This document shows positions 1,358 through 62,094 of a stretch of 64,000 bases of DNA, in pieces. The DNA comes from Luteibacter aegosomatissinici (GTDB lineage Bacteria; Pseudomonadota; Gammaproteobacteria; Xanthomonadales; Rhodanobacteraceae), in assembly GCF_023078495.1 (NCBI RefSeq), contig NZ_CP095742.1, forward strand, positions 124,001 to 188,000. The letters are read 5' to 3'. The notes below the pieces were generated by a model. That model searched no databases, had not been told where the DNA came from, and was given only the letters and a program-made list of their open reading frames with translations. Within the stretch, counting starts at the first letter, position 1; each line of letters starts with the position of its first letter. A program made the translations under genes and the position numbers.

Positions 1358-3618
1358 GCGCCCGGGTCGAGCACGATGGCATGGATCCCGGACGGCGCGC
1401 CGCGCTCAAGGTCGCGGGCAGTGGCCTGGCGGTCGCTTTTCTCTGGACGGCGGGGATGGGGCCCGCGGTGGCCGCCATGAATGCCCGCCGCCAGGATGCC
1501 GATGCCGCAGCCAGCGCCGCGGATGGCAATCCACCGTTCGCACCGAATGCCTTCATTCGCATCGACGCCGACGGTAAGGTGCGCCTCGTGATGCCGACGG
1601 TCGAGATGGGCCAGGCTATCTACACCGGCATTTCGATGATGCTGGCCGAAGAGCTCGGCGTGGGTATGGATCAGATCACGATCGAGCACTCGCCGCCCAA
1701 TGATGCGCTGTATGGGCAGGCGTTGCTGGGCGGCGGCCAGATCACCGGTGGTTCCACCAGCACGCGCGGGCAGTGGCAGGTGTTGCGCGAAGCGGGCGCT
1801 GTCGCACGCGAGATGCTGATCGCTGCGGCGGCCGCGCAGTGGCACGCTGAACCCGCAGAGTGCAGTGTGGCGCGAGGCGTCATTACCCACGCGCCTTCCG
1901 GCCGCACGCTCGGCTTTGGTTCGGTGGCCAATGCCGCGGGCAAGTTGCCGCAACCCGCTAACGTCACGCTAAAGCAGCGCAAGGATTTCACCCTCATCGG
2001 CAAGCCACTGCGTCGCGTCGATTCGCCCGACAAGGTCAATGGCGCCACGCAGTTCGGCATCGATGTGAACGTGCCGGGCATGAAGTTCGCCGCCGTGCGC
2101 ACCAGTCCCGAACTCGCGGGTACGCTGGGCGCAGTGGATGACACGGCTGCCCGGGCCATCCCGGGCGTTATCGACATCATCAAGCTCGATAACGCCGTCG
2201 CCGTGGTGGGCAGTAACTACTGGATCGCATCGCGGGGGCTCGAGGCGCTACAGATCACGTGGAAGCCGGGTGTCAACGCGAACCTGGATACACAGGGCCT
2301 CATCGATGCCTTGAAGCGGAGCTCCCAGGATGGGCCCGTGCTGGTCGGGCGCAAACCGAAGGGCGATGCGCCCGCGGGCGGTAAGCAAGTGGACGCGGAA
2401 TTCATTACCCCGATGCTCGCGCACGCGCCCATGGAGCCACTGAACGCGACCGTGCATGTCACGCCGGGGAAATGCGAAGTGTGGACCGGCACGCAGGTGC
2501 CCACCCGCGTCGTGGCGGAAGCGGCCCGCATCTGCGGCATACCCGCCGACGCAGTCACATTGCACGGACACTATCTCGGGGGTGGCTTCGGCCGCCGCCT
2601 GGAGACCGACCAGGTGGAGCAGGCCATCGCCTTCGCCAAGCAGGTGGCTTACCCGCTGAAGGTGATCTGGAGCCGTGAGGAGGATATCCGCCACGACCGC
2701 GTGCGCCCGCTGTACTTCGATCGCATCTCGGCGACGTTGGATAGTGACGGCAAGCCGGTCGCGTGGCATCACCGTATTACCAGCGGCACCGTGCTGGGCC
2801 GTTGGCTGCCGGGTGCCATGGGCAAGGACGGCATGGACAGCGATGCGATCGAATCCGCCGCCGACCTGCCGTACGTGATGGACAACGCGCTCGTCGAGTG
2901 GGTGCGCCACGACATGCCACCTGGGCTGGTGGTCGGCTGGTGGCGCGGCGTGGGTCCGACGCACAACCTCTGGGTGGTTGAGAGTTTCATCGATGAACTG
3001 GCGCATGCGGCCGGGAAGGACCCGGTCGCATTTCGGCGGGCGATCATGGCACCGGGTTCGCGGCCGCTCGGCGTGCTGGATCGCGTCGCCAAAGAGATCG
3101 GCTGGGGCAGCCCGTTACCTGCACGTTGCGGGCGCGGCATCGCGGTGGGTTCGCCGTTCGGCAGCCATGTGTGCCTGGCGGTCGAAGTGGAGGTGACGGC
3201 GCAGGGTGTGGTGAAACTGCGGCGGGCCGTGGCCGCGATCGACAACGGCATTACGATCAATCCAAGTTCGGTCAAGGCACAGATCGAAGGCGGCGTGTTG
3301 TTCGGGCTCAGTGCGGCGCTCTACAGCGGGATCACCCTGGAGCACGGTGCGATCCAGCAGAGTAATTTCCACGATTACCGCAACCTGCGTATCAACGAGA
3401 CACCGCTCTTCGAGGTGCACCAGGTGGAGAGCGATGAGGCGCCGGGCGGCATTGGTGAGGTGGGTACCGCGATTGCCGCACCGGCCCTGGCCAATGCCAT
3501 CTTCGCGGCGACCGGGATCCGGCTGCACCAGATGCCGGTGGCACGCACGTCACTGGCGCAACCCGAAGCAATGAAACACGTGGCCGATACCGGTACGGGC
3601 GGGGAGGGCGTGGCATGA
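1354..3618 (+). CDS. iorB: Molybdopterin-binding subunit of molybdenum hydroxylase (isoquinoline 1-oxidoreductase/aldehyde dehydrogenase beta)
   Basis: Large Mo-cofactor subunit, 754 residues from ATG 1354, which overlaps the iorA stop as ATGA. The frame is open upstream to 1150, but that stretch only shadows iorA. The N-terminus ([10 protein letters not shown] followed by a hydrophobic run) looks like a Tat signal or anchor, fitting export of a folded cofactor enzyme. Xanthine oxidase family landmarks include [13 protein letters not shown] in the middle and [19 protein letters not shown] near the end, which carries the glutamate expected at the active site. With the cytochrome encoded downstream it should form a membrane complex delivering electrons to the respiratory chain. 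Substrate unknown. Confidence 0.88.
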
Positions 3619-49609: not shown

Positions 49610-50419
49610 CTACGTTGCGACGTGGCGTACCGCTTCGACCACGGCCGTGAGCATGTCGCAGTCGCCATCGCTGAGCACATCGACCATCAGGGCGGCGATA
49701 GCGGCAGCGGCGAAGCTCTTGCGCACCGCGCCTATGGCTGCCCCCATCGTGCCGAGTTTGCGGCCAAACAGGCGTCCGGCGCGTTCAAGGAACGAAAGCT
49801 TACCGGCGATACGGTGCACTTCGAGGGCGACCTGCGGCGAGATGCCATCGGCTTCTTCGCGGATCAGTTCGGAGAGGACATCCATGCGGCCGACGTAATA
49901 CCGGCCAATACCCGTGGTGAACATGACCCAGTCGCGTGCCTGAGCTTGCGGCAACGTCATGATCTCACTGGGATCTTCTTCGAAATCGATAAAGCCCACG
50001 CCACGGTCGCCCACGGTGATGTTGCGTGCGAACGCCTGGCCAAGATATCCGCCGTGCCGATGCAGCTCGCCGATGGCGTGCGCGGTCTGCCGCACCAGGA
50101 TATCGGCGTCGTTCGCGCTTTCCAGGCGTTTCAGCCGGTGTGCCAGGGTAGGGCCCATGTCACTGAGGATGAGGCTGCGCGGGCCTTCGCCAAGAATGCG
50201 CGGGACCGGCGCGCCGCAGGCGCGAAGGGCTTCGATTCGTCGTGATTCGACGCGCTTGGCATCTTCGCCGGCGTGACGTGGCGGGGAGCGGAGCGCATCG
50301 AGCTCCAGGCGCGCCGCAAGGCTGTTCCAGAGCCGGACAAGGGCAGGGCGCAGCCAGCCATCCGCTTCGTATCGTTTGAGCCAGGCGGTGCGGCCGCCCA
50401 GGGAAAACCGTTGGACCAT
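49610..50419 (-). CDS. Kinase-fold protein (lipopolysaccharide kinase/RIO-like)
   Basis: 269 residues from ATG 50419, which has GGAGT at a good distance; the frame reaches 50491. The protein-kinase-like fold is suggested by an early lysine (TAWLKRY), a glutamate helix (ESRRIEALRACGAPVPRIL), ILSDMG, a catalytic-loop-like HRHGGYLGQAFARNI and GFIDFEEDP, where the metal-binding DFE stands in for DFG. Related to InaA/Kdo kinase-like proteins; phosphate acceptor unknown. It lies alone, divergent from the ABC transporter operon. Confidence 0.6.
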   Translation of the reverse strand: MVQRFSLGGRTAWLKRYEADGWLRPALVRLWNSLAARLELDALRSPPRHAGEDAKRVESRRIEALRACGAPVPRILGEGPRSLILSDMGPTLAHRLKRLESANDADILVRQTAHAIGELHRHGGYLGQAFARNITVGDRGVGFIDFEEDPSEIMTLPQAQARDWVMFTTGIGRYYVGRMDVLSELIREEADGISPQVALEVHRIAGKLSFLERAGRLFGRKLGTMGAAIGAVRKSFAAAAIAALMVDVLSDGDCDMLTAVVEAVRHVAT

Positions 50420-50741
50420 GAGTGAAACTCCATGCGTGCCGGATTTCCCCGCGCCCCCGCGCTGTGGTCTGCCCGTCACGCCACGAGACATGTGGCGGCT
50501 ATGCCGCTCTCCCCCCGTAAGCTAATTGTAAGCTTTGCAGTACAGCAATTCGACCCATCCGTCGGTATGGGCTTTGCCTGCCGTAAGGAAACCGTTAAGG
50601 AAGAGCCCGTCTCCGGCATCTACTGCGCCGAATCGGCAAGAGTGCGAATTACGCCTTCGCGCACTCTTGGCGCGGCCGCGACAGATTCTATGGTGGAGGT
50701 TCCGCCGCCTACCCAGCGGCCGCGCTCCAGCGAGGTCGTGC
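50420..50741. promoter_or_regulatory. Intergenic region with 10-base inverted repeat upstream of the ABC exporter operon
   Basis: No gene is seen on either strand. It contains CAAGAGTGCG (50637-50646) and CGCACTCTTG (50660-50669), a perfect dyad with a 13-base spacer, about 75 bases before the ABC ATPase start. No T run follows, so an operator is as likely as a hairpin. The GTCCG-N4-CGGAC boxes found before the peptide gene are not present here. Confidence 0.45.
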
Positions 50742-51506
50742 ATGCGTCCGCCTAACGCTCCCCCGGTGATCGAGATGCGCGGTGTGGGCAAGGTGTTCCT
50801 GGCCGGCGCCATCGAGAATCACGTGCTCACCGATATCCATCTCGCGGTCGCCCGTGGCGAATTCGTGGCGATTGCCGGCCCGTCGGGGTGCGGGAAAACC
50901 ACCTTGCTGTCGCTCATGGGCCTGCTGGATCAGCCAACCCGGGGCGAGATGCAATTCCTTGCCCAGCCCACGGCTGGGCTCGGACGCCGGCAGCGCGCCT
51001 TCCTGCGTAACGCGCACGTGGGCTTCGTCTTCCAGGCGTTCAACCTCATCGCCGACATGACGGTGGCGGAAAACGTGGCGTTGCCGCTGACGTTTCGCCC
51101 GGGGATAGGGCGCCGCGAGCGCCTGGAGCGCGCCGCTCACGCGTTGGCGAGCGTCGGCATGGCGCATCGCATGGGGCATTACCCAGGGCAGCTCTCGGGC
51201 GGCCAACAGCAGCGCGTCGCGGTGGCGCGAGCCGTGGTGGGCGAGCCCGCGATCCTCCTGGCCGATGAACCGACGGGCAACCTCGACTTGCGCAATGGCG
51301 AAAATGTCATGGCCTTGCTCGGTCGGCTGCACGCGGCCGGTACCACGATTTGCATGGTTACCCATGACGATCGATTCAGCGCCGCCGCCGACCGGACCGT
51401 ACGCCTGCTCGATGGCCGCGTGGTGGATGAGGCGACGTTCCACCAACGGCAGCACGAAGCGGAGTGCGGTCTGGATGAGCGGCGCACGATGGAAATTTTC
51501 CCATGA
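50742..51506 (+). CDS. ABC transporter ATP-binding protein (MacB/LolD type)
   Basis: 254 residues from ATG 50742; the longer open frame to 50535 is intergenic. Walker A GPSGCGKTT, Q-loop VFQAFN, signature LSGGQQQR, Walker B ILLADEPTGNLD and switch histidine MVTHD are all intact. The order and length fit the MacB/LolD subgroup, which powers mechanotransmission permeases rather than classical channels. The stop overlaps the permease start (ATGA). First gene of the set leading to the lanthipeptide genes, so probably export or self-protection. Confidence 0.92.
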   Translation: MRPPNAPPVIEMRGVGKVFLAGAIENHVLTDIHLAVARGEFVAIAGPSGCGKTTLLSLMGLLDQPTRGEMQFLAQPTAGLGRRQRAFLRNAHVGFVFQAFNLIADMTVAENVALPLTFRPGIGRRERLERAAHALASVGMAHRMGHYPGQLSGGQQQRVAVARAVVGEPAILLADEPTGNLDLRNGENVMALLGRLHAAGTTICMVTHDDRFSAAADRTVRLLDGRVVDEATFHQRQHEAECGLDERRTMEIFP

Positions 51507-53887
51507 ATGAGCGCACGGCCAGCGTGTTGCGCGCCTGCAGGCGGCTGTTCCAGCGGCCAGGCCATGTTGTGCTGGGCGCCACCACGCTGGCCCTCGCCGT
51601 GGCCACGTTCTTTGCCACGTTTACCCTGATCGATGCATTGCTACTGACGCCGCCGGCTTTCGGCCACCACGCCGACGTGGTTCTTTACGGTGAGGTTGTC
51701 CGCCCGGCATCGCCCCGTAGCTTGTCCATGTCCCTGTACGACGCTACGGGTTCCCCGCAAGGCGTTCTCTCCCGTGGCCTGGCACGTAGCATCGAGCGCG
51801 CGAGCGTTCGCAGTGGCCCGCATGCAGGGTTGCTCACCGTCCAGCGGGTGGATCCGGGCTTCCTGCCGACCCTTGGCGTGACTCCTTCGGCTGGGACGCT
51901 GGCGCTGGAAGCAGGAGGCCGCGACGGCGTCGCACTGTCATGGCGGCTCTGGAGGGCATGGTTCGGTGGCGAGCCGAACCTGACCGGTCGCACGGTTGTC
52001 GTCGATGGGCGCACGCTTCCCATCGTAGGAGTTCTGCCACCGGCGTACCGCTTGTTCGACGAAGTGGACCTGTTGCTTCCGTTGCGGCTCGTCCCGGGCG
52101 CGTCGGCAAGCGTACCGAACTACCTGGCCCTCGCGCGGCTTGCGCCGGATGTGTCCCCGGACGGCCTTGTCGCGCATTTGCGAAGCGCCGCACCGCCTCA
52201 CGGTGGCGGCGCGAACAGGGGTCGCTTCGGTGCCACCTACATCAACGATGCCCTCACTCAGGTGAGTGCGCCTGGCCTGTGGTTCTTCCTCGCCTGTGCC
52301 GTGCTCGTGCTCGCCACGGCGGCCGGTAATCTTGCCAATCTCATGCTCGCCCGTGCGCTCGCGCGCAGCCGTGAAACCGCGCTGCGCAGGGCACTGGGGG
52401 CGGGCTCATGGGGAACGTGGGCCCCGGCGGTCATTGAGGCCGGAGTGATCGGCGCCGTGGGCCTGGGGGCGGGTATGGTGCTGGGCTACATGCTCGTCCG
52501 GTCGGGCGAGAGCTACATTCCCGATGGCTGGCGCGTCAATGCGGGGGAACTCCCCATAGGCTGGCGCGTGTATGTCGCAACGGGGATCGCCGCACTCGCC
52601 ACTACGGCGCTTGCCGCGATCGGGGGCACGCTGCACGAACATGGCGATGCCCTGCTGAGGACGCGAGGCGCGGGAGGCTACCCATACAACGAACGGGTGA
52701 CGGCGCGTGCCATCAGGGTGGCGATGGTGCAGATGCAACTGGCCCTTGCCACGGTGCTTCTGTCCTTGTGCGTCGTACGCGCCATGCAGGTCTTGCGCCT
52801 GGAGGATGTGGCACCGGGCTTCGATGCGACAGGCGCCGCGGCCGCGCGATTCCGCCTGGATTCCACTCATTTCGACGCGGTGACGCTGGTAGCGCAGGCG
52901 GCGTGGGCGATCGCCCGGCAGACGACTGAGTTGCCGGGCGTGGCCAGCGCGGGTGTGACGACCCAGCTCCCGACAGGAACCAGCTTCAACGTGGCGTTCG
53001 CCGGCACCGATGGCAAGCCGATGGAAACGCAGTTCGCCCTGGCGACGCCCGGTGCGCGTGCTGCGCAGGGGCTGCATTTGCTGGCTGGGCGCGACATCAC
53101 CAGCAGCGATTCGGCGGATGCACCCGCGGTCGCCGTAGTCAATCGCGCATTCCTCGCCGCGATGCCAGGCGCAGGCCTCGGTACAACGATCCGCAAGGTT
53201 TCCCGCAGCCTGGGAAACCGTGAACTACGCATCGTGGGCGTCGTGGCAGATACACGTGATGCTGGCCCCGCCGACGCACCGCGCCCCTGGGTCACTGTGC
53301 CGTTCGCACAGCTTCCGGGTGCGGAGTTTGCCGCCTATCGCAGCTTGCTGTCGTATTACGTCGTGGTGCGTGGAACCAGCGACGCCGCCGCGGCGAGCAT
53401 GGACCTTAATCCCGCGGTGCGGGCCGTTGCTCCCTGGCTGGTGCTTGAGCGCCCGCAATCGCTCGCGCGGGCCTGGCACGATTCGCGTGCCGGGATGGAG
53501 CGCGACACGTGGCTCGCGACGCTGTTTGCCAGCCTCGGCTTATGCCTCAGCCTGGTCGGCTTGTATTCGGCGCAACGTGTCGAGGTGGCTTCACGGCACA
53601 GGGATCTTGCCTTGTGCGCCGCGCTGGGAGCGACGCCGTCGGATTTGCTGGGTATGTGCTTTGCACGCGGTGTCGCGCGCGGAGCACAGGGTATTGGCCT
53701 GGGGCTTGCGGCGGCGTTCGCCTGGAGCCGATGGCCGCCTGCCGCGCTCGCCCCCGATGCGCATTTTGATATGGCCGCTGCGCTGGTCGTCGCCGTGGCG
53801 ATGTTGTTCATGGCGTCGGCCGTCGCCCTGTCACCTGCCTGGCGATCGGCGGCCACCGCGCCGTTGTACGTGATGCGAGACCACTGA
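51503..53887 (+). CDS. ABC permease with duplicated MacB/FtsX halves
   Basis: 794 residues. Two halves each have a membrane anchor, a periplasmic MacB core domain and an FtsX domain: anchor at about 20-45, periplasmic segment (GRTVVVDGRTLPIVGVLPPA), membrane segments near 260-400 with ALARSRETALRRALGAG, then a second set ending DLALCAALGATPSDLLG. About eight membrane segments in all. The duplicated form needs no second permease. With the ATPase it should extrude a peptide or drug, most simply the lanthipeptide or an envelope-active compound (inference). Confidence 0.87.
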   Translation: MNERTASVLRACRRLFQRPGHVVLGATTLALAVATFFATFTLIDALLLTPPAFGHHADVVLYGEVVRPASPRSLSMSLYDATGSPQGVLSRGLARSIERASVRSGPHAGLLTVQRVDPGFLPTLGVTPSAGTLALEAGGRDGVALSWRLWRAWFGGEPNLTGRTVVVDGRTLPIVGVLPPAYRLFDEVDLLLPLRLVPGASASVPNYLALARLAPDVSPDGLVAHLRSAAPPHGGGANRGRFGATYINDALTQVSAPGLWFFLACAVLVLATAAGNLANLMLARALARSRETALRRALGAGSWGTWAPAVIEAGVIGAVGLGAGMVLGYMLVRSGESYIPDGWRVNAGELPIGWRVYVATGIAALATTALAAIGGTLHEHGDALLRTRGAGGYPYNERVTARAIRVAMVQMQLALATVLLSLCVVRAMQVLRLEDVAPGFDATGAAAARFRLDSTHFDAVTLVAQAAWAIARQTTELPGVASAGVTTQLPTGTSFNVAFAGTDGKPMETQFALATPGARAAQGLHLLAGRDITSSDSADAPAVAVVNRAFLAAMPGAGLGTTIRKVSRSLGNRELRIVGVVADTRDAGPADAPRPWVTVPFAQLPGAEFAAYRSLLSYYVVVRGTSDAAAASMDLNPAVRAVAPWLVLERPQSLARAWHDSRAGMERDTWLATLFASLGLCLSLVGLYSAQRVEVASRHRDLALCAALGATPSDLLGMCFARGVARGAQGIGLGLAAAFAWSRWPPAALAPDAHFDMAAALVVAVAMLFMASAVALSPAWRSAATAPLYVMRDH

Positions 53888-53897
53888 GGTACATCCC

Positions 53898-55268
53898 GTG
53901 AACAGCCCTCCCACCCATGCTCCGATCCTCATCATCGACGATCACGCCGACATACGGCTGGCCATGAGCATGCTGTTGCGAAGCGAAGGCTTCAGCGTTG
54001 TCGAGGCCGCGTCCCCGGAGTCCGCGTGTGCGATCGCGGCGAGCCAGGCGTTCTCCTGTGCCCTGGTCGATCTGAACTACACCGCGGACACGACCTCCGG
54101 CCACGAAGGACTTGCACTGGTGGCCCGCTTGCGCGAGCTGGCGCCAGGCATGGCGCAGGTGGTGATGACCGCATGGGGAAGTATTGACCTGGCGGTGCAG
54201 GCGATGCATCGGGGTGCCGCGGATTTCATCGAGAAGCCATGGAACCGCGACCGTTTGCTGCATACGCTAAGGGCACAGCTGAACCTGCATGACGTGAGCG
54301 AGGAGAACCGCCGACTGCGCGCGGAATGCGCACTCCACCGAGCTGGAACGGATGGCGTGTGCATGACGGAATCCTCCGCCATGCGCCGCGTGCTTGAACT
54401 GGTCGATCGTATCGCCGCCGGTGATGCGAACGTGCTCGTGCTGGGTGAAAATGGTACGGGAAAGTCCATGCTGGCCCGGGACATCCACGCACACTCCCCT
54501 CGCGCCCTGTGCCCTTTCATCCGGGTCGACATGGGTAGCCTGCCCGAAGCGCGGTTCATGGACGACATGTTTGGCGACGAATCGTGGCAGCGGCCCGGTC
54601 GCTTTGAACTCGCGCACCGTGGCAGCCTGGTGCTTGAAGAGATTTCCACGATTCCCGTGTTCCAGCAGGTGAAGTTGTTGCGTGTGCTGGAGGAGGGTGA
54701 GCTCGAGCGGCACGGTTCCGGGTTGACCCGGCGGGTAGATGTGCGGGTTATTTCCACGACCAACACCGATCTGGAAGCAGCGGCGCGGGCGAGCCGCTTT
54801 CGCCTGGATCTTCTCTACCGACTCAATGCGATGCAGGTGCGGCTGCCCGCGTTGCGTGAACGTCAGGAAGACATCATCCCTCTCGCGCGCCACTTCCTGC
54901 TCCGCGAATGCCGAAGGCTCGGGCGCGATGCCGCCCGGCTGTCACCATTCGCCGAGCGCGCCATGCGCGCTTACCCTTGGCCGGGCAATATCCGCGAACT
55001 CGAGCACACGATCGAACGCGCCGTGCTGGCGACGACAGGAGGCGAGATCGACCTCGATGCGTTGGCGTTGCAGCGCCAGGACGATGCCCCGCTCCTGCTC
55101 GATCGCATCACACTGCCGGAGGCAGAGGAGTTGCTGATCCAGCAGGCACTCGAGCGGAACGACAACAACCTGCAGCGTGCGGCCGACGCCCTCGGCATTT
55201 CGCGTCAGTCGCTTTATCGCCGCCTCGACAAGCGGCGTTTGAAAGATCCTTTCGAATCGGTGGAGTAA
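53898..55268 (+). CDS. NtrC-like response regulator lacking the GAFTGA loop
   Basis: 456 residues: receiver domain (IIDDHADIRLAM, phospho-Asp in CALVDLNY, MTAWGS), AAA+ domain with Walker A GENGTGKSM, and a Fis-type helix-turn-helix at the end (NNLQRAADALGISRQSLYRR). The sigma-54-contacting GAFTGA loop is missing: LPEARFMDDMFGDESW runs straight to QRPGRFELAHRG, and the Walker B is LVLEEI. It therefore probably acts with sigma-70 RNA polymerase instead. Partner kinase gene is next. Confidence 0.88.
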   Translation: MNSPPTHAPILIIDDHADIRLAMSMLLRSEGFSVVEAASPESACAIAASQAFSCALVDLNYTADTTSGHEGLALVARLRELAPGMAQVVMTAWGSIDLAVQAMHRGAADFIEKPWNRDRLLHTLRAQLNLHDVSEENRRLRAECALHRAGTDGVCMTESSAMRRVLELVDRIAAGDANVLVLGENGTGKSMLARDIHAHSPRALCPFIRVDMGSLPEARFMDDMFGDESWQRPGRFELAHRGSLVLEEISTIPVFQQVKLLRVLEEGELERHGSGLTRRVDVRVISTTNTDLEAAARASRFRLDLLYRLNAMQVRLPALRERQEDIIPLARHFLLRECRRLGRDAARLSPFAERAMRAYPWPGNIRELEHTIERAVLATTGGEIDLDALALQRQDDAPLLLDRITLPEAEELLIQQALERNDNNLQRAADALGISRQSLYRRLDKRRLKDPFESVE

Positions 55269-55280
55269 GGAGCAGGCGTC

Positions 55281-56624
55281 GTGGCTAGCGATCCACCGCC
55301 GCTGCCGAGCTTTGGCCCCACCCCTGCACTGGGCGCCGCGCTTTGGGCGCTGGGTTTCATTGCCCCGGTGACCGCCGCCGCCTTCGCCGTCGCATGGGAT
55401 CCGGCGGCGCCACCGCTTGTGCGCGCCGTCTTGCTCGCATCAGGTGTCGGCGGCTCACTCCTGGTCGGGTGGATTGGCGGCCGGCGTATTCTTGAGTCGT
55501 TGCGAACGGTCTCGGATTTGTTGGGTGCGCTTCGGGAAGGCGACTATGGCCTGCGCGGCCACGTCCGTCCGGGTTACGACCCGTTGCAAGGGCTGATCGC
55601 GGGCGTGAACGAACTCTCCGATGAGCTACGCCATGGTCGCCTCGCACGCACGGCGGCATCGCGCTTTCTTGGCAAGACACTGGTCGCATTGCACAGCGCA
55701 GTCATCGTCGTGGATGGCGAAGGCACCATTCGCTTGATCAACCCGGCCGCCAGGCGCCTGGTGGGTGCCGAGCGCAAGGCTGTCGTCGGCATGGCTCCGG
55801 CCATGCTGGGTTTCGCCGAGGCGATGGACGCTCCTGATGGCAGTGTGTTCGCGCACCGCTTTCCCACGGCGACCGGCCGTTGGGCGGTGCGCCGTGCTAC
55901 CTGGTACAGCGAAGGTCGCCAGCACACGCTCGTTATGCTCCACGACCTCAGTTCCGTACTCAGCGAAGAGGAGCACCGCGCATGGCAGCGATTGGTGCGC
56001 GTGTTGAGCCACGAATTGAACAACTCGCTCACGCCCATCGGTTCACTCGCCGATACGCTCAGTCGGCTGGTTGAGCGGCACGGAGCGGATATACCCCAGG
56101 TCGAGTTGCATGCCGGCCTGGAAGCCATTGCGCGGCGCTCGGGTTCGCTCGCGCGTTTCGTGGGGGGATACGGCATGCTGGCTCGCCTGCCACCGTTGTC
56201 CGTGCAGCCGTTCCGACTGGACATCGCGCTTTCGCGCCTGGCGCAACTGGAGCGGCGCGTGCCGGTGGTTATCGACGGCCGGGTTGCCCTGTGCGTGCAT
56301 GGCGACGAAGACCAGCTGGGCCAGGTGTTCATCAACCTTATGCGCAACGCGGCGGAATCCGCCTTGCTAACCGGCGGTGGCGTGCATATCGACTGGCAGG
56401 CCGAGGCCGGCGAGGCCTGTATCCAGGTCGTGGATGAGGGCATAGGGCTCCCGGTCAGCGATTCCTTGTTCGTGCCGTTCTTCACGACCAAGCACGAAGG
56501 ATCCGGCATTGGACTGAGCCTGGTGCGGCTCATCATCGAAGCCCATGGGGGAACCGTCGGGCTTGCCAACCGTACCGATGCGCGTGGCGCTATTGCGACG
56601 GTGCGGTTAAAGCTGGCCACGTGA
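55281..56624 (+). CDS. Membrane histidine kinase, NtrB/NtrY-like
   Basis: 447 residues from GTG 55281, with TAAGGAG upstream. Two N-terminal membrane segments (LGAALWALGFIAPVTAAAFA and AVLLASGVGGSLLVGWIGG) with little between them, a HAMP-like linker, a PAS-like domain (GTIRLINPAARRLVGAERKA), the H-box VLSHELNNSLTPIGS, and ATPase boxes INLMRNAAESAL, VDEGIGLP and GSGIGLSLVRLIIEAHGG. The tiny periplasmic part suggests sensing within the membrane. Partner of the preceding regulator. Confidence 0.93.
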   Translation: MASDPPPLPSFGPTPALGAALWALGFIAPVTAAAFAVAWDPAAPPLVRAVLLASGVGGSLLVGWIGGRRILESLRTVSDLLGALREGDYGLRGHVRPGYDPLQGLIAGVNELSDELRHGRLARTAASRFLGKTLVALHSAVIVVDGEGTIRLINPAARRLVGAERKAVVGMAPAMLGFAEAMDAPDGSVFAHRFPTATGRWAVRRATWYSEGRQHTLVMLHDLSSVLSEEEHRAWQRLVRVLSHELNNSLTPIGSLADTLSRLVERHGADIPQVELHAGLEAIARRSGSLARFVGGYGMLARLPPLSVQPFRLDIALSRLAQLERRVPVVIDGRVALCVHGDEDQLGQVFINLMRNAAESALLTGGGVHIDWQAEAGEACIQVVDEGIGLPVSDSLFVPFFTTKHEGSGIGLSLVRLIIEAHGGTVGLANRTDARGAIATVRLKLAT

Positions 56625-56628
56625 CCAG

Positions 56629-56687
56629 GCGTCCGGAAGCGGACAGGGCTGTCCGCTTCCGGACGCGCCGCGTGACCGGAATCGGAC
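56629..56687 (+). promoter_or_regulatory. Three GTCCG-N4-CGGAC dyads upstream of the lanthipeptide gene
   Basis: Box 1 GTCCG-GAAG-CGGAC (56631-56644), box 2 GTCCG-CTTC-CGGAC (56651-56664) and box 3 GACCG-GAAT-CGGAC (56674-56687, one mismatch). Boxes 1 and 2 together make a perfect 38-base palindrome (56629-56666, two-base centre). Centres are 20 and 23 bases apart, near two helical turns. Best reading: tandem operators of the NtrC-like regulator; the palindrome might also act as a terminator of the kinase gene. Confidence 0.6.
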
Positions 56688-56747
56688 CTCGGTCGTGGAA
56701 AGGTCCCGCATGCGGCCATCCGCAGCTTTCGAGGCGTGGCAAACCGA

Positions 56748-56777
56748 TTGTGCGCGAAACGCGGAGCAACCTAGATT
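56748..56777 (+). promoter_or_regulatory. Promoter of the lanthipeptide precursor gene
   Basis: -35 TTGTGC (56748-56753) and -10 TAGATT (56772-56777), 18 bases apart, about 55 bases before the start codon. Dyads for an activator end 60 bases upstream. Confidence 0.45.
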
Positions 56778-56830
56778 CGCCCCGCACACGCACTTCCGGC
56801 GTTGCGCACGCACCGGTCAAGGAGACCTCC

Positions 56831-56962
56831 ATGCATCCGATTCTCTTGCTCCAGGGTCTCGACACGAGTGGCCGGGAAGTACCCGGCATCGAAACCAACC
56901 TGGGAAGCTCGTATAGCGGCGCGGGTTGCATCGCGGGCCCCGCCGATTCGGGCGAAGGGTAA
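56831..56962 (+). CDS. lanA: Class III lanthipeptide precursor
   Basis: 43 residues from ATG 56831, with AAGGAG six bases upstream. The leader begins MHPILLLQGLDTSG; the I-L-x-L-Q-x-L pattern is the recognition motif of class III leaders such as those of labyrinthopeptin. The core holds Ser26, Ser29 and Cys33 in SSYSGAGC, exactly the labionin motif Ser-x2-Ser-x3-Cys, and has one cysteine only. Ser27 and Ser40 are further modifiable residues. The synthetase gene follows 154 bases later. The leader cleavage site is unknown, probably just before or within GSSYS; no dedicated protease gene is adjacent. Confidence 0.85.
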   Translation: MHPILLLQGLDTSGREVPGIETNLGSSYSGAGCIAGPADSGEG

Positions 56963-56992
56963 CGGGGCACTGGCTCACGAGCGGTACGAGAG

Positions 56993-57081
56993 GCGCCCTG
57001 TGCCCGGTTCCCACCTGGCACAGGCGCTTTGTCAGTCAACGGGAGGCAGAGGCTCCCGTACCGGCGTCCGGGCCGGTACGG
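56993..57081 (+). promoter_or_regulatory. Hairpins between precursor and synthetase genes
   Basis: Stem 1 pairs GCGC-C-CTGTGCC (56993-57004) with GGCACAG-GCGC (57017-57027), 11 pairs with one bulge, followed by TTT. Stem 2 pairs CCGTACCGGC (57056-57065) with GCCGGTACGG (57072-57081). Such leaky structures after RiPP precursor genes let the peptide mRNA exceed that of the enzyme. Confidence 0.5.
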
Positions 57082-57116
57082 GGCCTGGGCCCGCTCCGGA
57101 CGAGGATAGGCACCGC

Positions 57117-59792
57117 ATGGAGCGACACAGGCAGTTGTGGGCATACACCGCGGTGGATGCCGAATTTTTTGAACCGTACGCCCGCCACCCCATCGCGCCC
57201 GACGATTTCGCAGACATGGTGGGCCGCCAGCTCCCCGCGGGATGGACGTTGCAGCGCTCAGGCCCATGGCTCCAGGCGCAGCCACCGGCGTGCCGGCTGC
57301 CCGTCCAGGGCTGGAAGATTCACGTGGCATCGGTCGCGGCGACCGCAAGGATCGTGCTTGCGATCACGACCGCGATCCTCGTGGCCAACGACGTGGCGTT
57401 CAAGTTCGCGGGTGACCTCCGCCTGCTCGGGGCGATCAATGGGAAGCGCTGGCCAAGGGGCGGGGCAGGGAAATTCGTCACGGTCTACCCCGCCGACCTG
57501 CGGATGTTTCATCGGATCCTGGACGATCTTGCCGAGGCACTGGGCGGTTATGTGGGCCCACACGTACTTACGGATCGAAGGCACCCCCACTGTCCCATCG
57601 TGTCGTACCGATATGGGGGTATGTTGAGCGACTATCGGGTGGATGGTCGCGGGCGCCGGGAGTGGCTCCTGCGTCGGCCGGATGGCGGCACGGAGCCGGA
57701 TGATCGCGAGCCACGTTACCGCGTGCCCGATTGGCTCGCCGACCCCCTGGGTAGTGAGGCAGGCGGCGATGGGGATGCCCCGTTGCTATGCCGCGGCCGG
57801 TTCCGGCCCCTTGGGGCCCTCGCATTCTCGGCGGCGGGTGGCGTCTATATCGCCGATGATCTCTACGAAGGGCGCCGCGTGGTGATCAAGGAGGCGCGTC
57901 ACTATATCGGCGCCGCCGAACCGGCGACGGCCAGCCTGCGCAAGGAGTTCAGGCTACTCCGCCGGCTGGCCCCGCACGGCGTAGCACCACGGCCCATCGC
58001 CTACTTTCGCGAATGGGAGCACAGCTTCCTTGCCGAGGAGTTGCTCGAGGGTGAGACGCTCCGCCTGTGGCTGGGGCGTCGCTATCCAGCGCTGCGCATC
58101 GAGCCATCGCGCGCCGACGTCGCCGCGTACTTCGACGACCTGTGCCGTGTGTTCGAATCGTTCGCCGCGGCACTCGATCGCGTGCACGGTGCAGGCATCT
58201 CGGTGGGTGACCTGTCATTCCACAACATCATCGTCGACGCTGCGGGTAGCGTGCGACTAATCGATCTGGAGACGGCGGTCGAACACGACTTCGACACGGT
58301 CGCCAATGCATGGACGCCAGGTTTCGCTTCACGCCATGCATCGCGTAGTACGCATGGTTCGGCCGTCGCATCCGATCGGTATGCCTTCGGTGCCAATCTG
58401 TTCGCGGCTTGCGCGCCGGTGAATGCGCTGCTCGCGCTTGACGCCGGTGCGTTGTCCCGCTTCCTGGCGCAGTTCGTGGAAGACCTGGGGTATCCGCAGG
58501 CATACGCCGACATGGTGGTTGCCCTGACTCATCCCGATCCGCTGCGCCGTCCCGACCCCGTAAAGGCCATGGCGACGTTGCGCGAAGCCGTCGTGGCCAT
58601 GCCGCGGGACACGCAGCCGGTGCCACACCGGGCCCGGCCTGGCGTGCCCGCACCAGGCACCGGTGAGCGTGTACTTGCCTACCTGGAGCATCAGGCCCTG
58701 GCGCCACGTCACGACCGCTTCGTGCCAGCAGGGCCTGAAATCTTCGAGTCGCACCCATACGGCGTAGCGCACGGGGCAGCCGGCGTGTTGCACGCGTACC
58801 AGCGGCTCGGGATGCGTGCCCCATCCAACCTGCTGCCGTGGCTTTGTTCCGGCGTGCGGGGCCAGCGTGAACTGGGTGGGGGCCTGATGGGCGGCGCAGG
58901 TGGCATCGCGTGGACATTGTTCGACGCATGCGAATCCGACCTCGCCATGACCCTGCTCCGCGGCACGCCACTGGAGGGCGCGGTACGCGAGGACCCTGGG
59001 CTCGATGACGGTATCGCGGGCTGGGGCATGGCACGGCTGAAAGCGTGGCTGGCTACCGCCGAACGGTCGTGCCTGGCGGCCGCTTGCGAGGCTGGCGCGC
59101 TGTTGCTGGCGCGCGCTGAGGTCAGTAACGGCCTGTTGCATTGGCCAGTCGGCGAACGGCAGCCTCTGGGCCTGGGCTACGGGGCAAGTGGCATCGCCCT
59201 CTTCATGCTGCATCTCCACCTGGCGACCGGTGAGGAGCGTTACCTCGACGCATCGCGCCGTGCGCTCGATTTTGACCTGGCACAGGCCGTGCCGGGGATC
59301 GATGGGACCAGCTCCTGGCCGGCGTGGGTCGGCTCGGGCACGGTATTGCCTTACCTGCGCGAAGGGACGGCCGGCGTACTCGCCGTCGCCGCCAGGCTCT
59401 ACGCATGCACGGGAGACGCGCGCTACCGCCAGGCGATCGTCGCTACCGAGCGAGATCTCTTCCGTAGGCATGCGATTCGCCCCGGTGTGTTCGATGGCCT
59501 GGCCGGCCTGGGCGAAACCCTGCTCGATCTTGCCGTGTTCGTGCCCGACCGCGCGGCGCTGTACATGGACCATGCTCGCAGCGTTGCATGCGGGATCGAA
59601 CCGTTCCTCCTGCCTCGCGATCAGGGCTTCGCCGTGCCGGGTGCCGAACTGGCACGCGTTTCGTGCGACCTCGCCACGGGCAACGCAGGCGTCGGAAGCT
59701 TCCTCCTGCGTCTCACGCAAGGCGGCGCGGCGTCGTTCATGCTTGACGAGGCCATGCCCGCCGCCACGCAATCGCGTTGCGTGGCGGCATGA
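57117..59792 (+). CDS. lanKC: Class III lanthipeptide synthetase
   Basis: 891 residues from ATG 57117 (GAGGA upstream; the open frame reaches 56802 but crosses the precursor gene). Lyase-like domain (1-200): LPVQGWKIHVASVAATA, GKFVTVYP and VSYRYGGM, all typical of LanKC. Kinase domain (215-480): VVIKEAR (lysine near 257), VGDLSFHNIIVD (catalytic Asp near 364) and RLIDLETA. LanC-like domain (540-891) has glycine-rich helices (GVAHGAAGVLHAY, GYGASGIALFML) but no WCxG or CHG zinc ligands, placing it in class III rather than IV. It phosphorylates, dehydrates and cyclises the precursor. Confidence 0.92.
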   Translation: MERHRQLWAYTAVDAEFFEPYARHPIAPDDFADMVGRQLPAGWTLQRSGPWLQAQPPACRLPVQGWKIHVASVAATARIVLAITTAILVANDVAFKFAGDLRLLGAINGKRWPRGGAGKFVTVYPADLRMFHRILDDLAEALGGYVGPHVLTDRRHPHCPIVSYRYGGMLSDYRVDGRGRREWLLRRPDGGTEPDDREPRYRVPDWLADPLGSEAGGDGDAPLLCRGRFRPLGALAFSAAGGVYIADDLYEGRRVVIKEARHYIGAAEPATASLRKEFRLLRRLAPHGVAPRPIAYFREWEHSFLAEELLEGETLRLWLGRRYPALRIEPSRADVAAYFDDLCRVFESFAAALDRVHGAGISVGDLSFHNIIVDAAGSVRLIDLETAVEHDFDTVANAWTPGFASRHASRSTHGSAVASDRYAFGANLFAACAPVNALLALDAGALSRFLAQFVEDLGYPQAYADMVVALTHPDPLRRPDPVKAMATLREAVVAMPRDTQPVPHRARPGVPAPGTGERVLAYLEHQALAPRHDRFVPAGPEIFESHPYGVAHGAAGVLHAYQRLGMRAPSNLLPWLCSGVRGQRELGGGLMGGAGGIAWTLFDACESDLAMTLLRGTPLEGAVREDPGLDDGIAGWGMARLKAWLATAERSCLAAACEAGALLLARAEVSNGLLHWPVGERQPLGLGYGASGIALFMLHLHLATGEERYLDASRRALDFDLAQAVPGIDGTSSWPAWVGSGTVLPYLREGTAGVLAVAARLYACTGDARYRQAIVATERDLFRRHAIRPGVFDGLAGLGETLLDLAVFVPDRAALYMDHARSVACGIEPFLLPRDQGFAVPGAELARVSCDLATGNAGVGSFLLRLTQGGAASFMLDEAMPAATQSRCVAA

Positions 59793-59796
59793 GCCG

Positions 59797-62094
59797 CTAC
59801 AGGCGGAACTTCGCCTCCGCCAGCCACGTGCGCGAGGGGTAAGGGTAATACACGTAGTAACGGCGGTTGGTCAGGTTATCCACACCCACGCTCAGCGCCA
59901 CATGCTCGCTCACCGTCCAGCCGACCTTCGCATCGAAGGTGAGGAAATCGCTGGCGCCACCGAACGTATCCGGATCGATATCGCTGTGGTCGAGTGTGTT
60001 GTACTGCCGGCCGGAATAGCGGCCGGCGAGCGTCAGCGCGACGCTTTCGCTTGCGTGCATCGTCGCGACCAGGTTGGCCCGCCAGCGGGGTATGCGATAG
60101 AACTGCTTGCCTTCGGACGCCGGGTTGCGGTGGTTCCGTACAGTCGTCGCCTGTGTATAGGCGGCATTGGCCGTGAGATCGAGCCAAGGCATGAAAACGC
60201 CGGTGCTGTCGTAACTCGCCTCGGCGCCGCGCGTGCGAACCAGGTCGACGTTCTGCACGCTGGTGACATTGGGAAACACCGTCGTATCGGTCTGGCTGAA
60301 AAGCGTATTGCGCGTATCGCTGCGGAAGACGGTAAACCGCGTCACGCTGTTCCGCCGGTACCATTCGGCAGAGAGCTCGCGCGAGAGATCGTTCTCTGGC
60401 TTAAGGTTCGGGTCGTTGTTGACCAGGCTTATGCCGTTGAACGTACCCTGGAACAGCTCGTTCACGGTGGGGAAGCGGTACGCGCGGGCGCCTGACAAGC
60501 GCAGCGTCAGCGCATCGCTGGCCGCATAAGCCAGCGATACCTTGGGCGACGTGTGTGTTTCCTTGCGTTCCGGGTAGCCGGTGCTGGCCGTCGCCGTCGC
60601 GCGGGTCCCGTTGAAGGCTCGCCACTGCTCGTAGCGCGCACCCGCCGTCAGGCGCCACCGTTCGGCCAACTGCCAGGCATCCTGTACGTAGAGCGCCTGC
60701 GTCTGCGTGCTCCCGCCATTGGATGTCGTCAGCGCGCCTGCATCACCGCGACGCCATGCGTCGAGTGCGTACGTTGCGTTATCCAGCCGGTAGCCGTCGT
60801 AGTGGTAACCAAAGCTCACGGTGTGCGTGTTCGGGGCCATGCTGTCGGGCGTGTGGCTCGCCCGGATATCCAGGGTGCGCCAGCGGCTGCCATCGCCCGC
60901 GGTCAGCAGGCCAGGGCCGTCATACGTCACACCACTCGCCGTGCGGTCGCGGTTCTGGTCCATGTCGAAGTACGACACGTTGCCCTCCACGTTCCAGCCC
61001 GTATCGCGGTGCGTGCCGAGGGAAAGGCCGTACAGGTAATTGCGGCTTTGTCGCGTCGACGGCGCAAAGAAGTTGGTAGGAAGCGTGTACTGGCGGCCAT
61101 CAATACTTACCGGTCCCGACCAGACAGGGTTGCCGGTCGCATCGCGCAGGAAGGTATCCGTACGGTGCGACAGGTCCTGTTTCCAGTAGCCCAGGGTGGC
61201 TGCGGCCGTGAGCTCGGGCGTCACGTCATAGGTCAACCGCGCATGGGCCTCGTCCTGGCTCGTCGCTTCCTGGCCTTCGGCATTGATGCCGAGCACTTCG
61301 CGTGGCAACCCGGTGGCCCCGGTGTCACCGATCGCGCCAGTGACGGGGCGGTTCACGCCCACGGTGGTGGAACGATTCTGCACGGCATAAACCAGCGGCT
61401 GCCCGTTGGACTGCAGGTGAGACACACCTATCAGGAAGGCGAAGCGCCCGCTGCGATCGCCGATCGTGGCGCTCTGCTTGCTGCCGCCGTAGTCCCGGTC
61501 CACGCCATAGGTATGGACATGCTGGGTGAACGCCTGGACATCGCCGGTGACTTCGAGCCTGTCGGGCATGCGCGTGGTCATCACGACCGTCGCGCCAATG
61601 CTGTTACCGGGGTACAAGGCCGAGTAGGCGCCGTAGATGACATCGATACGTGCCAGGTTCTCCGCGAAAGCCATGGACCAGCGTGGTGGGTTCGCCCAGT
61701 TATTGCCGAGCAGGTTGGAGAGCAGCAACCCATCGAGGTACACCAGCCCGCGAGCGCTTTGCTGGTTGCTCGTGCCGCGTACGGAGAAGGTGGCGTTCTC
61801 GTCGCCGACGAAACGCTTGCGGATACCGAAAGCGGGCAGGTACTTCAGCGCGTCCTCGGTATTGACGATGTTCAGCCGCTCCAGCTTCGCGGGCGTGATC
61901 GTCTCCACGGCGGCCGGCATGTCGGGATCCACCGCCGTTCCGTGGCTGGTCGCGGAAACCCGCACTTCGTGCAGATTGGTCGTGGGGGGCGGAAGATCGG
62001 GCGTGCTGGTGGCGTGCGCGGCAAACGTGCCAGCGCTTAAGGCGCAGGCGATGGCGCGCGCCAGCGCGCGTCCCTCGTTGGAAAGGAAAGGCAT
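59797..62094 (-). CDS. TonB-dependent outer-membrane receptor
   Basis: 765 residues with a signal peptide (ending FAAHA). Plug domain from about 40: PAAVETITPAKLERLNIVNT, then ENATFSVRGTSNQQSARGLV; barrel to the end, with the family's closing NLTNRRYYVYYPYPSRTWLA and a terminal phenylalanine-type strand (EAKFRL). A TonB box could be HEVRVSA near residue 42. The substrate is not clear, but DUF2946 genes next to such receptors suggest copper or another metal. It converges with lanKC, four bases apart, and is probably not part of that cluster. Confidence 0.9.
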   Translation of the reverse strand: MPFLSNEGRALARAIACALSAGTFAAHATSTPDLPPPTTNLHEVRVSATSHGTAVDPDMPAAVETITPAKLERLNIVNTEDALKYLPAFGIRKRFVGDENATFSVRGTSNQQSARGLVYLDGLLLSNLLGNNWANPPRWSMAFAENLARIDVIYGAYSALYPGNSIGATVVMTTRMPDRLEVTGDVQAFTQHVHTYGVDRDYGGSKQSATIGDRSGRFAFLIGVSHLQSNGQPLVYAVQNRSTTVGVNRPVTGAIGDTGATGLPREVLGINAEGQEATSQDEAHARLTYDVTPELTAAATLGYWKQDLSHRTDTFLRDATGNPVWSGPVSIDGRQYTLPTNFFAPSTRQSRNYLYGLSLGTHRDTGWNVEGNVSYFDMDQNRDRTASGVTYDGPGLLTAGDGSRWRTLDIRASHTPDSMAPNTHTVSFGYHYDGYRLDNATYALDAWRRGDAGALTTSNGGSTQTQALYVQDAWQLAERWRLTAGARYEQWRAFNGTRATATASTGYPERKETHTSPKVSLAYAASDALTLRLSGARAYRFPTVNELFQGTFNGISLVNNDPNLKPENDLSRELSAEWYRRNSVTRFTVFRSDTRNTLFSQTDTTVFPNVTSVQNVDLVRTRGAEASYDSTGVFMPWLDLTANAAYTQATTVRNHRNPASEGKQFYRIPRWRANLVATMHASESVALTLAGRYSGRQYNTLDHSDIDPDTFGGASDFLTFDAKVGWTVSEHVALSVGVDNLTNRRYYVYYPYPSRTWLAEAKFRL

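Follow-up and report, generated by a model that had tools for sequence, protein, structure and literature searches.

A probable self-regulated class III lanthipeptide cluster kept across most of the genus Luteibacter

We analysed a 64,000-nucleotide stretch of DNA (the window; positions 124001-188000 of contig C1 of G000, a 4.99 Mb genome in one contig) in which lanA, a short precursor gene, lies ahead of lanKC, the gene for a class III lanthionine synthetase. The original prediction was of a class III lanthipeptide locus in a Xanthomonadales host. Both genes are where it placed them, with the precursor open reading frame (ORF) at 56831-56962 and lanKC at 57117-59792, and the host assignment holds as well, given that the genome groups with Luteibacter both in a search of the family's genomes and by its closest LanKC proteins. 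We consider it probable that the genus Luteibacter has here a class III lanthipeptide cluster that is compact and complete, regulates itself and makes a single-ring product. The unit is larger and more ordered than a precursor and a synthetase alone. We compared 20 Luteibacter loci, which are 18-kb regions from our own genome and from 19 others of the same genus, and found the order ATP-binding cassette (ABC) ATPase, permease, response regulator, histidine kinase, lanA, lanKC, with the upstream genes in the same direction, in 20/20. The permease, regulator, kinase and LanKC each give one unbroken match in all 20 loci, and the ABC gene in 19. In G113, an 80%-complete assembly, the cluster is spread over two contigs, with a Bud32-like gene at one end and a TonB-dependent receptor at the other.

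LanKC (57117..59792, forward strand) is 891 aa long from its ATG, with lyase, kinase and cyclase parts. We took its start at 57117, where the orthologs start; a 996-aa ORF from 56802 is in the same frame and begins at an upstream TTG. The protein scores 658.3 bits against the class III model NF038151, above the cut-off of 575, and 502.1 bits against the class IV model NF038150, below the 650 needed for a class IV lanthipeptide (LanL) synthetase. By profile, the synthetase is class III and not class IV. Pfam recognises the RamC_N lyase domain (E 2.7e-55) and LANC_like (E 4.4e-11), and its kinase domain match is weak (23.5 bits, under the cut-off of 31.7). Six motifs with what we take to be functional roles (QGWKIHV, GKFVTVYP, YRYGG, VVIKEAR, GDLSFHN and IDLE) are all present, as patterns written exactly so, in the window LanKC and in most orthologs. 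The motifs WCxG and CHG, presumably the zinc ligands, are absent by pattern test from 20/20 proteins (window plus 19 orthologs). Sequence matches in the PDB numbered 14, of which 12 are chains of 859-904 aa; the depositors named five of these LanKC or LanKC-type and the others kinase-domain proteins, and the best alignment to solved LanKC enzymes spans lyase and kinase. The earlier description of a full LanKC with lyase, kinase and zinc-ligand-free cyclase is thus borne out by the RamC_N match, the NF038151 score and the pattern test for WCxG and CHG.

The precursor gene lanA (56831..56962, forward strand) has an ATG start with AAGGAGA upstream and encodes the 43-aa peptide MHPILLLQGLDTSGREVPGIETNLGSSYSGAGCIAGPADSGEG. 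Its leader motif is ILLLQ and its ring motif is S26-x-x-S29-x-x-x-C33, with the border between leader and core not fixed. One precursor lies ahead of lanKC in each of the 20 loci and in G113, and all 21 have an LQ leader followed by [ST]xxSx(2,3)C, the first ring residue being Ser in 19 and Thr in two. Only M1, the leader LQ, and the second Ser (S29) and Cys (C33) of the ring motif are invariant across this set. The window, G103 and G110 precursors carry SSYSG[AT]GC with a single Cys, those of G124 and G120 likewise have a single Cys, and 12 of the remaining 16 have an extra Cys within the ring motif, most of these together with a DGF-like tail. An ORF that looks like a precursor, with [ST]xx[ST]x(2,3)C and an LQ in the leader, was found between the kinase gene and lanKC in 19/20 loci and in 0/4000 dinucleotide shuffles, which supports the claim of a 43-residue precursor with a class III leader; from the pattern we read the one missed locus as L099, where the precursor leader is longer. 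No Pfam or NCBIfam model matched the window precursor, and a protein search with it, which needs shared 5-residue words, returned only itself and one protein of Luteibacter sp. 621. A new product family is likely at the level of sequence, and its chemistry stays a prediction. Between the two genes, the transcript of 56963..57116 (forward strand) is predicted to be a structured RNA with a minimum free energy of -85.1 kcal/mol (z -3.07; 0/200 shuffles equally stable), and a terminator scan of this gap found no terminator-like site, with or without regard to a U-tract terminator.

The cluster begins with a MacB/LolD/DarD-like ABC transporter ATPase (50742..51506, forward strand; PF00005 E 1.2e-31). 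Its ATG at 50742 was read from the sequence, the ORF list giving a longer version from a TTG at 50535, and its score against NF038007 DarD is 229 bits, below the cut-off of 375. The permease that follows (51503..53887, forward strand) is a duplicated, ADOP/YbbP-like protein with two MacB_PCD and two FtsX stretches and scores 365.7 bits against TIGR03434, below the cut-off of 622. FtsX domains together with a MacB-like periplasmic domain make it a type VII (FtsX/MacB-like) ABC permease. Its AlphaFold model (mean pLDDT 85) matched YbbAP best in Foldseek, then MacB and LolCDE, and lower down BceAB and BceABS, with TM-scores by query length of 0.44 or less. BceB-type permeases have 10 transmembrane (TM) segments and one large extracellular domain. 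The Luteibacter protein is not of that type, having 8 hydrophobic segments and two MacB_PCD stretches, and ranking BceAB below YbbAP. Among 15 other LanKC loci of the order Xanthomonadales, 10 have an ABC match shortly after lanKC, nine of them 3.7-4.2 kb from the lanKC start and the tenth in L119. The TonB receptor occupies the corresponding place in 19/20 Luteibacter loci, which leaves the type VII module as the cluster's sole candidate exporter. Downstream of lanKC in L124 and L133 there is an ATPase with 63-64% identity and a permease with 32-33% identity, so an ABC pair of the same kind recurs near class III genes.

The two-component system claimed upstream of the precursor is present. 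Its response regulator (53898..55268, forward strand; Response_reg, Sigma54_activat, HTH_8) belongs to the NtrC family, and the GAFTGA loop that contacts sigma-54 is absent from it in 20/20 loci. In Caulobacter and Rhodobacter, NtrC proteins lacking this loop work at promoters of the sigma-70 type (PMC10274813), and with the loop missing throughout, the lanA promoter is likely to be of that type as well. The histidine kinase (55281..56624, forward strand; HATPase_c, PAS, H-box HELNNSL) has predicted TM segments at residues 15-39 and 44-65, with a short loop between them and no sizeable periplasmic domain. At least two close N-terminal segments were found by hydropathy in 19/20 kinases; for the twentieth (L100), the start that we used possibly lies too far downstream. 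This predicted architecture suits reading a membrane partner. Two loci from other genera, L130 and L131 (G644 and G840), also have NtrC-type regulator and kinase relatives near LanKC, and GAFTGA was flagged in neither regulator.

The gap between the kinase gene and lanA contains a putative operator, a tandem palindrome GTCCG-N4-CGGAC (56631..56687) with exact sites at 56631-56644 and 56651-56664 and a third, with one mismatch, at 56674-56687. Exact palindromes number 30 in the corresponding gaps of 19/20 loci, against 0.025 expected. With up to one mismatch the palindrome occurs in 20/20 loci, and two such sites 19-20 bp apart occur in 18/20. It is this conservation that marks the array as an operator; the regulator that would bind it and the sigma factor that would act there are predicted. 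A candidate -10 element, TAGATT (56772..56777, forward strand), lies 59 bp before the A of the lanA ATG, and the same hexamer is found in 16/20 gaps, about 41-73 bp ahead of lanA. The statement that the genes lie behind a promoter therefore stands as far as the operator array and the TAGATT box go, and a generic sigma-70 scan of 56600-57120 did not support it, finding no site. A sigma-54 promoter at lanA was considered and rejected: in a -24/-12 scan with weights of our own, the best window site has p 0.28 against shuffles and only 1/20 loci reaches p 0.05, in agreement with the missing GAFTGA loop.

Our own genome has four exact single sites, two of them at lanA, and 38 of the reversed control pattern. 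A strict exact tandem pattern is found in 9/23 genomes of the genus, and there only 0.3-0.5 kb from lanKC; our genome, whose first site is without the leading T, is not among them. The third exact site lies about 215 bp before the gene for a 766-aa protein without a Pfam match (L134:4035-6335, which is G000:C1:2244034-2246334, reverse strand), with one exact palindrome and one with 1 mismatch upstream and a bacterial sugar transferase gene nearby. Homologs of this protein occur in 11/23 genus genomes, and exact sites stand in front of 7/16 homolog loci, for four of which the gene start was taken from match coordinates. The fourth site, at 2976387, is among overlapping ORFs.

Based on family and motif, we propose that LanKC would bind the ILxLQ leader of LanA, phosphorylate and eliminate Ser26 and Ser29, and close one ring on Cys33. 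The ABC ATPase and the type VII permease would probably extract or export the peptide, or report on it, and the short-loop kinase, which has hardly any periplasmic sensor itself, probably takes its signal from the permease. The NtrC-family regulator would bind the GTCCG-N4-CGGAC array and drive lanA-lanKC from a sigma-70-type promoter, and the intergenic RNA structure may set the ratio of LanA to LanKC. Chemistry, export and signalling are all predicted here from sequence.

Several observations weigh against this proposal. The ring could be either a labionin or a lanthionine plus a dehydroalanine, between which the sequence does not discriminate. No protease and no LanT-type exporter were found in the cluster, so it is by inference that we assign export to the type VII permease. 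In L092 (G117), at about 2899-3611 on the strand of the cluster, the match to the ABC ATPase falls into two frames, through either a frameshift mutation or a sequencing error. The empty sigma-70 scan belongs here too; a weak or absent -35 element, as expected of an activated promoter, would explain it. Operator and regulator are paired here on the basis of linkage. Single exact sites number 4-20 per genome, with 15 in G112 and 12 in G118, the two genomes that lack LanKC, and the reversed control pattern is commoner (14-40 per genome). We therefore rejected the count of single sites as a marker of the cluster.

Some LanKC match was found in 35/233 genomes of the family, many of them to kinase domains only. 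Strong matches occur in 20/22 other genomes of the genus (in G113 in two pieces) and, outside it, in G141, G206, G159 and G090. LanKC is absent from G112 and G118, drafts that are 99-100% complete and whose whole genomes were searched. The NF038151 cut-off is passed in 1/369 sampled genomes of the class, our own, and in 29/398 genomes of the order, 19 of which are Luteibacter; the many matches below the cut-off are kinase-domain noise, also seen in 12/14 control genomes. In a protein search, all of the closest LanKC proteins that bear names are from Luteibacter (locus L031 is from Luteibacter yeojuensis SU11), with one exception, P0012. It is labelled Bacillus sp. NP157, is in the same length class as the LanKC of L087 (G120), and looks like a mislabelled Luteibacter record.

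A LanKC tree was built by a quick method from 20/21 cluster-bearing loci of the genus and 13/15 other loci, leaving out G113, which is split over two contigs, and G090 and G814, which have broken or split frames. It used the proteins P0073-P0122 apart from P0076 (504 aa), and none of P0003-P0072. The 20 Luteibacter LanKCs form one clade on a long stem with SH-aLRT 100. One of the other loci, G109b, is a second copy in a Luteibacter genome: L123 (G109:C1:2277535-2280174) encodes a distant LanKC (34% identity) that groups with G159, and its precursor has a GTG start and reads MAQDIEKNDVLNLQS... A tree of the flanking TonB receptor has largely the same groups, apart from that of G104 with G105 and G116, which is seen for LanKC alone. 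The receptor tree places the LanKC-less G112 and G118 together in one clade (100/100). Within its clade the cluster is probably vertically inherited, with the lanKC end fixed at the TonB receptor gene and varying genes next to the other end. Midpoint-rooted, the tree fits either one gain, or one loss in the lineage of G112 and G118. Several LanKC loci elsewhere have features of their own. Reading frames are interrupted or split in L122 (G090) and L133 (G814), L125 and L128 (G698 and G616) each have several similar short precursors around LanKC, with GSAASLGCDG or GSFASLGCDG core types, and L032 (SKS1.bin115) has four 36-aa precursors in a row upstream of LanKC, beginning MNNILELQ..., two of them identical.

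The TonB-dependent receptor gene (59797..62094, reverse strand; PF00593, PF07715) is convergent with lanKC and adjoins it in 19/20 loci, with a gap of 4 bp in the window. At the other end of the cluster is a gene for a small Bud32-like kinase or phosphotransferase (49610..50491, reverse strand), which scores 19.8 bits against TIGR03724, far below the cut-off of 125. It is found at 9/20 loci; the other 11 have no match, though the stretch reaches that far, and we reject the idea of a cassette with a constant pair of neighbours. The matches to the receptor and to the Bud32-like gene adjoin in G118, 150 bp apart, in what looks like an empty site, and G112 has the receptor with no Bud32-like gene and no cluster nearby. 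Rearrangement has affected this flank in L118 (G122:C5), where about 320 kb separate receptor and cluster. The GC content is 0.667 in the cluster and 0.639 and 0.653 in the flanks, giving no sign of recent import.

We compared distances over 19/20 loci, L094 having no receptor in its stretch. The mean p-distance of LanA is 0.614, on par with the permease (0.613), and that of the flanking receptor is 0.189. Outside the conserved ring motif, the LanA core and the permease are the fastest-diverging parts of the cluster. LanA distances correlate with those of LanKC at 0.75, the permease at 0.68, the regulator at 0.64, the kinase at 0.58 and the flanking receptor at 0.57.

Two alternatives deserve consideration, each of which we think unlikely. 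In the first, the ABC-permease-two-component genes are an independent envelope-stress or detoxification module with Bce-like logic, perhaps protective against the lanthipeptide, and the lanA-lanKC promoter is outside its control. Foldseek does match BceAB and BceABS, below YbbAP, MacB and LolCDE; modules of an ABC transporter and a short-loop kinase sense peptide antibiotics in Firmicutes (PMC3023708); and relatives of the regulator and kinase lie near lanKC in only 2/15 other loci of the order. However, the module stands beside lanA-lanKC, and operator sites lie between the kinase gene and lanA, in 20/20 loci, and a search of 18 kb around the G112 and G118 receptors turned up no permease, regulator, kinase or LanKC (LanKC alone was searched for genome-wide). 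In the second, which we hold doubtful to a like degree, the mature lanthipeptide is a pheromone with species-specific versions, which permease and kinase would sense and which would switch on its own production. Its appeal is that core and permease are hypervariable within a fixed gene order and that the operator is ahead of the precursor gene itself. Against it, the distances show no correlation beyond phylogeny, and the kinase and regulator vary less than the permease does. Because flanking-receptor distances correlate too, we did not take the agreement between permease and precursor as a sign of co-evolution beyond shared ancestry, a further point against our proposal.

A more elaborate version is speculative, and we would rather bet against it: a self-inducing Gram-negative circuit in which one type VII ABC permease both exports and reads a single-labionin peptide. 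Through a kinase poor in sensor parts and an NtrC regulator independent of sigma-54, the peptide would signal to its own tandem operator as well as to a second gene, that of the large protein, and it would diversify between species as an allele-like specificity system.

It is quite improbable that the TonB receptor belongs to the system and takes the peptide back up, for instance as a metal carrier. The receptor adjoins lanKC in the convergent arrangement described above, and its best profile matches, each below cut-off, are to receptors for heme, transferrin and siderophores, but it is kept in both LanKC-less genomes (73-76% identity; beside the Bud32-like gene in G118), and in G122 it is far from the cluster. 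The receptor is probably outside the cluster. That the cluster is decayed or silent, its conservation reflecting neighbouring genes only, we regard as very improbable: the cited literature, in its accessible part, reports no product and the L092 ABC gene is split, yet permease, regulator, kinase and LanKC are unbroken in 20/20 loci, the ABC gene in 19/20, and the six LanKC motifs are kept.

The proposed self-regulated cluster has several known relatives. It shares the LanKC architecture and the class III profile with class III lanthipeptides such as labyrinthopeptin, SapB and erythreapeptin. It differs from them in the one ring motif and one Cys of the window core, in its Gram-negative host, and in having a two-component system and a type VII ABC module with no LanT or protease found. 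Lipolanthines such as microvionin have a single-Cys, labionin-type precursor in common with it. Lipolanthine clusters carry decarboxylase and fatty-acid genes, and neither kind was found among the scanned cluster proteins; we rejected a lipolanthine-type avionin for want of the decarboxylase. Lipolanthines are described as the only characterised single-Cys case in PMC11251773, whose type III leader LQ and SxxSx(2-5)C are matched by the Luteibacter precursors. In Bce-like modules, too, a regulator and a short-loop kinase lie beside an ABC transporter whose permease is of the FtsX type (PMC3023708; PMC5786555), and such modules are described as specific to Firmicutes (PMC3023708). The Luteibacter permease is nearer to YbbAP/ADOP, its regulator is NtrC-family, and the whole is linked to a lanthipeptide precursor and synthetase. 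Since the permease and regulator families differ, the module may, by analogy, work like a Bce-like module without being one. The Caulobacter and Rhodobacter NtrC proteins (PMC10274813) share the absence of GAFTGA in the AAA+ domain, the receiver domain and the Fis-type helix-turn-helix; operator and gene context are different in Luteibacter.

The surprise attached to a class III locus in Xanthomonadales has to be tempered. Such loci are rare in the class, but LanKC is found in most genomes of this genus, and class III clusters have already been printed as antiSMASH predictions for L. mycovicinus (Table 1 of PMC11165876) and for Lysobacter (8 clusters and 3 precursors; PMC11451712). We therefore rate the surprise as moderate. 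Likened by description rather than by sequence, these clusters are probably of the same or a related type. In their accessible parts, both accounts are silent on the precursor anatomy, operator and neighbourhood of their class III clusters, and we found no paper combining LanKC and sigma-54. As far as the accessible text of the cited literature goes, what is new is the operator, the absence of the sigma-54 loop, a gene order shared across the genus and the set of precursor variants.

Most LanKCs come from Actinobacteria and Firmicutes, and most known LanKC enzymes are Gram-positive (PMC7268733), which gives a Gram-negative example its weight. Here, a Gram-negative class III system is kept across most of a genus, with a fixed gene order, a readable operator and 21 natural precursor variants, so that laboratory strains would allow direct tests of how the peptide matures, is exported and is controlled by a type VII ABC/two-component module. 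The peptide keeps changing while the arrangement of the cluster is kept across most of the genus.

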